Shown here piece after piece: positions 7,411 through 62,075 of a stretch of 64,000 bases of DNA. The notes under the pieces were generated by a model. The model saw nothing but the letters and a program-made list of their open reading frames with translations, was not told the origin of the DNA and did no database searches. The stretch is from Anaeroplasma bactoclasticum (lineage in GTDB: Bacteria > Bacillota_I > Bacilli_A > Acholeplasmatales > Anaeroplasmataceae). Made by a program: the position numbers and the translations under genes. Location: positions 62,001 to 126,000 of the forward strand of contig NZ_QXEV01000003.1 in the NCBI RefSeq assembly GCF_003550015.1, written 5' to 3'. Every line of letters starts with the position of its first letter. Positions within the stretch are counted from its first letter, which is position 1.

Positions 7411-7437
7411 AAAGACATCCGTTTGGATGTTTTTTTA
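7411..7437 (+). terminator. Rho-independent terminator
   Basis: ACATCC/GGATGT stem with a GTTT loop and seven T, just after the small acidic gene. Confidence 0.88.
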
Positions 7438-7452
7438 TTTCTAATATTAATG

Positions 7453-7604
7453 TATAATAGTAGTGATGGAAAGTTATTTAATCATTGAGACACATATGTG
7501 ATCTCGTTAAAACCATTTAGAGCTTTGACTCTTTATTCAATGGTCTTTCCATCGCTATCGAAATAAGCTAGTTGAGAGAATATTTGGCTCTCAGCTTTTC
7601 TTTT
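7453..7604 (+). ncRNA. Candidate structured small RNA (or cis-leader) upstream of prs
   Basis: A TATAAT at 7453-7458 is followed by a closed three-way junction. P1 pairs 7463-7473 with 7545-7555 (11 bp, extendable by 2-3). P2 pairs 7487-7493 with the segment ending at 7505 (7 bp with one bulge, loop ATAT). P3 pairs 7512-7517 with 7539-7544, with an inner AGAG/CTCT stem and loop CTTTGA. It ends in a terminator hairpin (7565-7604). No ORF or tRNA lies here. I do not recognise it as a known riboswitch, 6S, SRP or RNase P RNA. CATTGA (7483-7488) can instead pair with TCAATG (7537-7542), so a switch is possible. Either a free RNA of about 145 nt or a prs attenuator. Confidence 0.55.
7565..7604 (+). 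terminator. Terminator ending the 7460-7600 RNA
   Basis: TGAGAG/CTCTCA is extended by AAGC/GCTT around a 4-nt bulge and followed by TTTTCTTTT. Confidence 0.8.
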
Positions 7605-7764: not shown

Positions 7765-8772
7765 ATGTATCGAGTACTTATATTAGAAGAAAGCAATTTA
7801 GGAAGAAATGTAGAAAAGGCATTTAAAAAGGAAGATATTATATCTTATAAGTTTTCTCATTTTAAAGATGGAGAAATGCTTGTTGAATTATTAGAGCCTG
7901 TACGTGGAGATGATGTTATTTTACTAGCATCCGTATCTCACCCTGTAAATGAGAATTTAGTTAAGATAATGATTTGTGCTGACGCCTTAAGAAGAGCATC
8001 TGCAAAATCCGTTTGTCTATTTACGCCATATTTAGGCTATGCAAGACAAGATAGAAGAATGAATCCTTGGCAGCCAATTACTGCAAGATTAGTTGCGGAT
8101 TTACTTCAAACCTCAGGCATAACTAGGGTTATTACCTTCGATTTACATGCACCGCAGATTGAGGGATTCTATAGTATTCCTATTGATAATATTCCAGTTT
8201 CTGCCATTTTAGGCTCTATTTGGAGAAAGTCCTGTCCTCCAACATTTAACCCAAATGACGATGTTGTCGTTTCCCCAGACCATGGTGGAGTCGTTCGTGC
8301 TAGAGCGTTTATGAACGCTGCAGGAATCCCTAATTTAGTTGTTGTTAATAAATATAGAGAAAAGGCCAACGAGGTTGCTTCTATGCAGGTTATCGGTAAT
8401 GTAGAAAATAAAAATGCCATCATAGTAGATGATTTAGTCGATACCGGTGGAACATTAATGAAGGCTTCGTCTGAGCTTAAGATGCTTGGAGCTAAGGATA
8501 TTTATATTTTCTGTACGCATGGAGTATTTTCAGATAATTCTATAAAGAAATTAAGTGAATATCCTGATATTACTAAAGTCATTATTACGAATACTATAGA
8601 TAAATCTAATGAGCTTATTAATGATAAGATTGAATATCTAGATTTATCTAGAGTAGTTATAGGTATTATTAAAACCTTCCAGGAGGGTAAGCATTTGATT
8701 GATTTCTTACATGCAATGCTTGCTTATGACCCAAATAAGGATGAGGAATTAAAGAAGCAAAGAAAAAATTAA
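7765..8772 (+). CDS. prs: Ribose-phosphate pyrophosphokinase (PRPP synthetase)
   Basis: 335 residues, slightly longer than the usual 315. It makes PRPP from ribose 5-phosphate and ATP for purine, pyrimidine, NAD, His and Trp synthesis. Visible motifs: A-R-Q-D-R-R near 92, the D-L-H-A-P-Q-I-E-G-F-Y signature near 126, the ribose-phosphate loop V-D-D-L-V-D-T-G-G-T near 221, and S-P-D-H-G-G-V near 170. A Lys-rich C-terminal tail accounts for the extra length. The start lacks a nearby Shine-Dalgarno site (see 7727-7764). A terminator follows at once. Confidence 0.95.
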   Translation: MYRVLILEESNLGRNVEKAFKKEDIISYKFSHFKDGEMLVELLEPVRGDDVILLASVSHPVNENLVKIMICADALRRASAKSVCLFTPYLGYARQDRRMNPWQPITARLVADLLQTSGITRVITFDLHAPQIEGFYSIPIDNIPVSAILGSIWRKSCPPTFNPNDDVVVSPDHGGVVRARAFMNAAGIPNLVVVNKYREKANEVASMQVIGNVENKNAIIVDDLVDTGGTLMKASSELKMLGAKDIYIFCTHGVFSDNSIKKLSEYPDITKVIITNTIDKSNELINDKIEYLDLSRVVIGIIKTFQEGKHLIDFLHAMLAYDPNKDEELKKQRKN

Positions 8773-8800: not shown

Positions 8801-8851
8801 ATATATATGCACATACATATGTATACATATATGCGTGCATACGCGCACGCG
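8801..8851. repeat. 51-nt perfect alternating purine-pyrimidine tract
   Basis: Every base from 8801 to 8851 alternates purine/pyrimidine: an AT/AC-rich first half and a GC-rich second half (ATGCGTGCAT then ACGCGCACGC). Overlapping palindromes ATACATATGTAT and TATGTATACATA lie inside. Such tracts can adopt Z-DNA or cruciforms under negative supercoiling. It sits between the prs terminator and the ribosomal operon, about 180 bp before the S10 promoter. GC-alternating DNA like this is otherwise rare in this AT-rich window. Confidence 0.9.
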
Positions 8852-8951
8852 ATAGGGGAACAAATTCTTTTACATAATCCCTATGAAAGTGAAGTTTTCA
8901 TTAAAAAAAGATTAAAATATAGATCCTATAGTATAACTTAGGGTCTTTTTG
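8852..8951 (+). terminator. Hairpin region ending in a second terminator before the S10 promoter
   Basis: AGATCCTA (8921-8928) pairs with TAGGGTCT (8939-8946) and is followed by TTTTTG. Upstream, ATAGGG (8852-8857) can pair with CCCTAT (8879-8884), and the same CCCTA could instead pair with TAGGG at 8939. The mutually exclusive pairings look like an attenuator, though no gene lies between here and the S10 promoter. Confidence 0.5.
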
Positions 8952-9064: not shown

Positions 9065-9191
9065 GGCTCTATATCGAGCAAGAAGTGGCTGTGAAGTGGG
9101 AGGTTGCTGACACACCGAAGAGCGTTGTCATTAACCGTGTGTTAGGTTTTCCCATGGAGCAAGTCTATACGCAGATTATAGGCGAAAGGAG
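9065..9191 (+). promoter_or_regulatory. S10 operon 5' leader (ribosomal-protein leader-like RNA)
   Basis: The 135-nt untranslated leader folds strongly: GTGGGA (9096-9101) with TCCCAT (9150-9155) encloses TGACACAC (9108-9115) with GTGTGTTA (9137-9144). It is flanked by GCTC/GAGC (9066-9079) and CTATA/TATAG (9165-9181) next to the GAAAGGAG ribosome site. The T-G-C-T-G-A-C-A-C-A-C-C and C-C-C-A-T-G-G-A-G-C stretches resemble leaders I recall before rpsJ in other Bacillota. In well-studied bacteria S10 leaders respond to L4; that role is inferred here. Confidence 0.75.
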
Positions 9192-61100: not shown

Positions 61101-62075
61101 ATGAAAAAGGCATCAGATATTTTATGCGCATTATCTGTTATAGTAGCAGCATTTTTAGGTATTTGCTGTTTTAGTGGTTTTTTTGGTTTGATAGAAAGTG
61201 ATGTTTTTAGAGGAGTTGTGATTATTATAAGCGTACTAATAGGAGTATGTATTAGAGCCGCTATAGAAGATGAACATCCCATTGCAGCTGGAGTAATCAC
61301 TTTATTATTTATTAGTACTGGTGGATTTGGTTTAATATCTGCTATTTTGCTATTTGTTTATGGAGGACAGCAGAATTCAGGCGTTACTCCTGCAGCTTCT
61401 CAAACAGAATCAAAAGCACAATTTAATCAAAATAGAGAAGTTAGCATCCGCGCATTTTTTGAAAGATATGAAGCAATAATGAGAGAGAATAAAGACAACT
61501 ATTTATCTAGCGAAGAATACAGGAAGCAAATCAATATTCTTACTGAAGAGATGAAGGAATTTAATAGAGTTCTTGCAAATCAGCTTCGTTCCATTGAAAA
61601 TAGACTTAATAGAGGCGTATTATCTTTAGATGAAGCTAATAAGGAAGCAGCCCCAATTAAAGCACAATTATCTCGGGTTAATCAATTATTAGCTATGGTT
61701 CATGGAAGTGAAGAGTATATGGTACCAGCTGAGTATATGGAAAAGGCAAATGCACAAGCTGAAGCCCTTGAAGAAGGCATTAAGGAAGAAATAGCTAGAC
61801 TTGAATCAAAACTAGCATTAGATGAAAAAAAGAAGGCTCATTTTGAATCTTATAAAAAGTATTATGAGCAGGGTATTTATTCTGATGAGGAATATTTATC
61901 AAAATTAAGACAATTACGTTCTGATGAAAACATTAATGACGCTATTGAATCTTTAATAGAAAGATTACAAAAAAACGAAAAGAATAAAACGGATTTAGAG
62001 TTTTATAAGAATTGTTATGAACGTGGTATGTATACTTCAGAAGAATACTATCAGAAATTGAAAGAATTATTATAA
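61101..62075 (+). CDS. Membrane protein with coiled coil and repeated SHOCT-like modules
   Basis: 324 residues. Three hydrophobic segments within residues 5-90, then a long charged helical region. Two clear SHOCT-like hairpins near the end: Y-K-K-Y-Y-E-Q-G-I-Y-S-D-E-E-Y-L-S-K-L (about 250) and Y-K-N-C-Y-E-R-G-M-Y-T-S-E-E-Y-Y-Q-K-L (about 305); weaker units near 133 and 170. Function unknown; probably self-associating. Single-gene unit with its own promoter and palindrome. Confidence 0.78.
   Translation: MKKASDILCALSVIVAAFLGICCFSGFFGLIESDVFRGVVIIISVLIGVCIRAAIEDEHPIAAGVITLLFISTGGFGLISAILLFVYGGQQNSGVTPAASQTESKAQFNQNREVSIRAFFERYEAIMRENKDNYLSSEEYRKQINILTEEMKEFNRVLANQLRSIENRLNRGVLSLDEANKEAAPIKAQLSRVNQLLAMVHGSEEYMVPAEYMEKANAQAEALEEGIKEEIARLESKLALDEKKKAHFESYKKYYEQGIYSDEEYLSKLRQLRSDENINDAIESLIERLQKNEKNKTDLEFYKNCYERGMYTSEEYYQKLKELL

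Follow-up and report, generated by a model that had tools for sequence, protein, structure and literature searches.

Comparative evidence for a conserved structured small RNA in the left end of IS110-family elements, with a solo copy upstream of a prs-like gene in Anaeroplasma bactoclasticum

Introduction

The window analyzed here, the whole stretch of 64,000 nt from Anaeroplasma bactoclasticum (positions 62,001–126,000 of contig NZ_QXEV01000003.1), contains a short non-coding segment that an earlier note described as a three-way-junction RNA, with a TATAAT upstream and an intrinsic terminator behind it, and for which two readings were proposed: a free small RNA outside of the known families or a new sensor attenuating PRPP synthetase, whose gene, prs, follows. 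The locus thus raises the question of what this RNA, designated here RNA1, is, and of whether it belongs with the gene that it precedes.

Results

A conserved three-way junction between putative promoter and terminator signals

All the described parts were found (Table 1), and no ORF of at least 60 aa runs across positions 7453–7604 of the window. The folding energy of the window RNA had a z of −3.55, with none of 200 shuffles as good. Comparison of the Rfam covariance models with the window RNA returned no match at either the gathering or a permissive threshold, and RNA1 likewise had no curated covariance-model match to PRPP/purine riboswitches or to any other Rfam family.

Table 1. Position of RNA1 and of neighboring features in the window.
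Feature	Position	Strand	Basis and remarks
Intrinsic-terminator-like hairpin and T-run of the upstream 124-aa ORF	7415..7436	+	From sequence
Solo segment derived from IS110 left end	7429..7604	+	Blastn, 96% identity to full-IS positions 36–211 (G000:C2)
−10 box TATAAT of RNA1	7453..7458	+	Homologue comparison
RNA1 three-way-junction core (model R1/R2)	7460..7558	+	Covariation, homologues
P1, 5′ strand	7460..7473	+	Partner 7545–7558, 14 bp; A4 helix 1, 14/14 pairs with two-sided changes
P1, 3′ strand	7545..7558	+	Covariation (A4)
P2 arm	7487..7505	+	A4 helix 2; signature search; IS621 structure (PMC11208158)
P3 arm	7512..7544	+	A4 helices 3 and 4, two-sided changes in all pairs
P3 outer helix	7512–7517/7539–7544		
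P3 inner helix	7519–7522/7529–7532		
Terminator T2 of RNA1	7570..7604	+	Folding; stem 7570–7578/7588–7596, U-tract to 7604
prs-like gene (PRPP synthetase)	7765..8772	+	Pfam; neighbor only, outside the system

The covariance search suggested in the earlier note revealed abundant compensatory changes which, together with the shuffles, back the fold. In the alignment of 35 homologues (A4), which was fitted to the covariance model and so leans towards the model structure, 30 of the 31 pairs showed two-sided changes and 92.3% of the cells were paired, versus 9–17 pairs and 35–46% of the cells in slid controls; cells with two-sided changes numbered 272, versus 23–41 in the same controls. A MAFFT-aligned seed of seven sequences already showed 10 two-sided pairs, versus 0–1 when slid. 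The first MAFFT alignment (A1) misplaced the helices of distant members, and model-based alignments were used instead. An alternative pairing of CATTGA with TCAATG, put forward in the earlier note as breaking P3, was not conserved, being 72.7% paired in A3 with 2 two-sided pairs, versus 94.7% and 23 for the junction.

The transcription signals are also conserved. A −10 box with at least five of six matches occurs in all 35 homologues, between −4 and +4 relative to the start of P1, and is an exact TATAAT in 22 of them (background, 1.8% exact), while T2 follows RNA1 in 31 of the 35. Pairs 1–4 of P1 are poorly conserved and pairs 5–14 well conserved in A4, as would be expected if transcription started near 7464, around 6–7 nt after the −10 box. 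The fixed −10 box, the conserved start of P1 and the terminator support a discrete transcript of around 140 nt. Judged by these comparisons, RNA1 is a conserved structured RNA and a separate family, with a predicted −10 box and terminator of its own; the suggestion of a free small RNA outside of the known families was supported by the covariation, the −10 box directly 5′ of P1, the conserved terminator and the lack of an Rfam match.

The association of RNA1 with prs is accidental

Regulation of prs by a riboswitch or sensor in the host was suggested by the location of the RNA 160 nt upstream of this gene. Nevertheless, the check for homologues before prs showed no such RNA upstream of the three closest orthologues in the genus (G012, G001, and G026), and all the other copies of RNA1 are in the left ends of IS110-family elements, are left over from them, or lie beside unrelated genes. 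Moreover, RNA1 has its own terminator, so that termination precedes prs, and a separate sequence lies between both. We therefore regard a sensor attenuating PRPP synthetase as close to inconceivable, and as a conserved function it is refuted; an accidental local effect on prs is possible. A riboswitch or prs leader was accordingly rejected as a candidate, for want of an Rfam match and of a conserved position before prs in orthologues. The neighboring 124-aa ORF had no match in 35 relatives, hence there was no empty site to compare at the prs locus.

Two further features were seen nearby in the window: an alternating purine-pyrimidine stretch after prs (8805–8853; cacatacatatgtatacatatatgcgtgcatacgcgcacgcg) and, ahead of the S10 operon, a match to the S10-Clostridia ribosomal protein leader (9083–9185; RF03136, 38.2 bits).

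RNA1 is carried by IS110-family elements

DNA searches showed that the segment is multi-copy and patchy, with copies of 95–97% identity in other genomes, many of them at contig ends, as is usual for repeats. A second copy in the same genome is part of a complete insertion sequence of 1.77 kb (G000:C2:155652–157422). The recombinase of the carrier has 397–402 aa and Pfam domains DEDD_Tnp_IS110 and Transposase_20; these domains, the match between guide and target and the junctions read establish that it is an IS110-family element. A second and distant recombinase of this family, with 31% identity, occurs in the same genome (L031, G000:C34:362–1435), at a locus without a match to RNA1.

The covariance models built here detected RNA1 in 12, and then in 19, of the 160 genomes searched in the order, in 14 of 395 in the class and in 7 of 295 in another order. 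No fewer than 11 families of the class have it in IS110-family left ends. A search of viral contigs returned no relative, and a plasmid search gave one short and weak match only.

The order of the parts was constant in every element readable across its left end: the terminus (TTTCGTAT...), a short hairpin with a T-run (T1), the −10 box, RNA1, T2, the bridge RNA and the recombinase gene. We assign the non-coding DNA of around 215 nt between T2 and the recombinase gene to the bridge RNA because its variable guide matches the left target of each copy, as in L019 (ACCTCTTTT), L049 (GAGGTGTTT), L050 (GGTCTTTTT), and L165 (ATCCTTGTTT). Over 19 elements, the matches to the own target summed 141, versus a mean of 90.9 when permuted, with 0 of 20,000 permutations reaching this value; three elements (L020, L047, and L159) matched their own target poorly. 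The donor guides ATCTAAT and AACGAAAA are constant and match the right and left IS ends, and the insertion sites are mostly T-runs of intrinsic terminators. This arrangement of guides and targets agrees with the published guide rules (PMC11208160).

Among close copies (L019:5863–6079, L047, L049, L050, L053, L091–L095, and L165) the target guides vary, mostly matching the copy's own terminator, such that the carrier offers a natural series of reprogrammed guides. In genome G232, the element of L165 (1347–1446) lies near a match to the CRISPR-DR7 repeat, its left target TTTCAATCCTTGTTT matching the guide ATCCTTGTTT, so that a CRISPR repeat may have been its insertion site.

The promoter-RNA1-T2-bridge RNA-CDS order of all elements could also mean that RNA1 and T2 form the leader of a transcript comprising the bridge RNA and the recombinase gene, RNA1 being a by-product, and that binding of the recombinase to nascent RNA1, or the folding of RNA1, sets read-through at T2 for autoregulation. 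The 5′ stem-loop of the bridge RNA begins within the U-tract of T2, so that read-through would be needed, and the P2 arm could bind the recombinase. We nevertheless consider attenuation in cis rather unlikely: no conserved antiterminator was found, the only alternative helix proposed is the non-conserved one described above, and RNA1 is also intact in copies with nothing left to attenuate, two of which (L109 and L184) lack T2 and have a T-run right after P1.

Solo and partial copies of RNA1

The copy in the window comprises only positions 36–211 of the IS, having lost the bridge RNA, the recombinase gene and both IS ends, and blastn found no other IS parts near it. It is cut at T-runs on both sides. 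The left junction is inside the T-run of the terminator of the 124-aa ORF, whose hairpin takes the place that the IS's own T1 hairpin occupies in intact copies; the right junction is inside the T-run of T2, where homology to the IS stops.

Nine other solo copies lack the bridge RNA and the recombinase gene (L107, L109, L153, L154, L177, L182, L184, L185, and L186) and five further copies are broken off inside the bridge RNA (L106, L163, L166, L172, and L175), numbers that come from searches selecting for an intact RNA1 and so give no fair measure of selective retention. Six solo copies (the window copy, L153, L154, L177, L182, and L185) end at or just after the T-run of T2, which is consistent with loss of the DNA from T2 to the target T-run beyond the right IS end. 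L153 and L154 are solo copies that two species share at one host locus; their T2 ends differ slightly, and they stem either from one old deletion or from two events. In L109 and L184, where T2 is gone, P1 plus the T-run directly following it could act as a terminator of its own; L184 (1501–1620) contains a free-standing RNA1 in which P1 and then TTTTTT directly precede a GGAG ribosome site and an ORF.

The insertion of the IS in terminators and the ends of solo copies at T-runs could also suggest that only T1 and T2 matter, restoring the terminator split by the IS and keeping outside transcription off the recombinase, with RNA1 a spacer and the solo copies neutral scars. Relics of other IS parts (G034:C11 and L093) also speak for this; in L093 (G049:C1), other DNA stands in place of T1, RNA1 and the left end, and the recombinase gene and the greater part of the bridge RNA are still there. 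But this explanation is very improbable, given that 30 covarying pairs, the fixed −10 box and the hairpin described below would have been lost from a spacer.

RNA1 shares a hairpin with the bridge RNA

In both loops of the IS621 bridge RNA a flipped-out A precedes, by five nt, a syn-G followed by U, with contacts to the recombinase (PMC11208158). A bulged A7501 in P2, followed by TCTC and then G7506-U7507, gives RNA1 the same stem-A-N4-GU signature that is common to both bridge-RNA loops. A search for this signature (a 4-bp stem, loop, A, 4-nt strand, and G-U or G-C) found 51 occurrences in 19 left ends, whereas shuffling predicts 5.7; RNA1-P2, the target loop and the donor loop typically have one each. 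The apex of the P2 hairpin equals that of the target-loop hairpin of the same element in L095, and that of its donor-loop hairpin in L156. Additionally, model R2 matched the target-binding loop of the bridge RNAs from G430 and G260, with rough E-values from 2.6e-5 to 7e-4. UU replaces GU after P2 in L107, L109, and L184, the free copies that have diverged most.

RNA1 was rejected as the bridge RNA itself, since the target and donor guides lie downstream of it. It resembles one half of a guide loop and not a guide that works, because the equivalent A/G half-signature was not seen in its closing stem and J12 is constant across targets, being identical in L019, L020, and L047 although their target guides differ. 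RNA1 has the look of an incomplete copy of the bridge RNA that its element carries, and the shared hairpin could reflect duplication rather than function.

The shared loop signature and the deep covarying conservation across many families would also fit a positive cofactor, with RNA1 serving as a third loop-like RNA in excision, circle formation or synapsis, or as a chaperone of the recombinase. This we find improbable, as neither J12 nor J23 showed a match that changes along with the target or donor, and IS621 requires only its own bridge RNA and recombinase (PMC11208160).

Discussion

Our results indicate that the RNA seen in the window is a solo copy of RNA1, the second small RNA of a clade of IS110-family elements, and the likeliest reading, held with somewhat less than even confidence, is that RNA1 binds the recombinase and lowers transposition in trans, probably as a decoy. 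RNA1 would be transcribed from the inserted element and would use P2 to bind the IS110 recombinase, as one half of a bridge-RNA loop would; separate loop molecules of IS621 do function in vitro (PMC11208158). It would not be able to complete a guide loop, because J12 is constant where the target guides differ, and binding through P2 without completing the loop would make it a decoy that keeps transposition low. The solo copies would then be leftovers that may still make RNA1. The structure, the promoter and terminator signals, the position and the shared hairpin come from the sequence and its comparison, and all the steps of the mechanism beyond them are what we infer. A decoy is one of several roles that fit the same anatomy, and against it stands the closing stem of RNA1, without a matching A/G signature, such that binding may be weaker or different.

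A variant that we consider doubtful is that RNA1 is a bridge-RNA mimic inhibiting an RNA-guided recombinase in trans, and that solo copies, such as that of the window and the free-standing ones of L109 and L184, are retained by the host as immunity against IS110, or were co-opted for another role.

Programmable DNA-editing tools are being developed from bridge recombinases, about whose restraint in nature very little is known. A second RNA that is conserved across many genera and has a hairpin like those that bind the recombinase would serve as a natural control element or as a cofactor, and its role is directly testable in IS621-style assays.

An antisense action was also considered. Comparison of RNA1 with the bridge RNA and tnp gave no signal, with duplex energies of z −1.7 to +0.7 in 12 elements and no common site, and antisense action is disfavored by these predictions.

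RNA-OUT of IS10 is an IS-borne small RNA antisense to the transposase mRNA. RNA1 is likewise IS-borne and could lower transposition in trans, but differs in not being antisense. Within the IS110 family, ISPpu9 encodes Asr9, antisense to the tnp 5′-UTR, and Ssr9, downstream, which both tune expression of the recombinase (PMC8450116). Like them, RNA1 is a small RNA of an IS110-family element; unlike them, it is sense, lies upstream and has no significant pairing to the downstream transcript. In the open literature and Rfam, which our survey covered, no second structured sense RNA of this kind turned up for IS110 elements. The bridge RNAs of IS110 and the small RNAs of ISPpu9 are already known (PMC11208160, PMC8450116, PMC11187229), and RNA1 is a previously unlisted second small RNA.

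The closest likeness is to the bridge RNA of IS110/IS621, or seekRNA (PMC11208160, PMC11208158, PMC11187229). Both are encoded in the non-coding left end of IS110 elements, as seen in the IS-borne copies of RNA1, the window copy itself being solo; the RNA1 hairpin has, as the guide loops do, an A five nt before G-U/C; and, in some elements, the target-binding loop gives a hit with the RNA1 model. Conversely, RNA1 is a separate upstream unit with its own putative −10 box and terminator, and has a single signature hairpin, no target or donor guides and an extra arm, P3.
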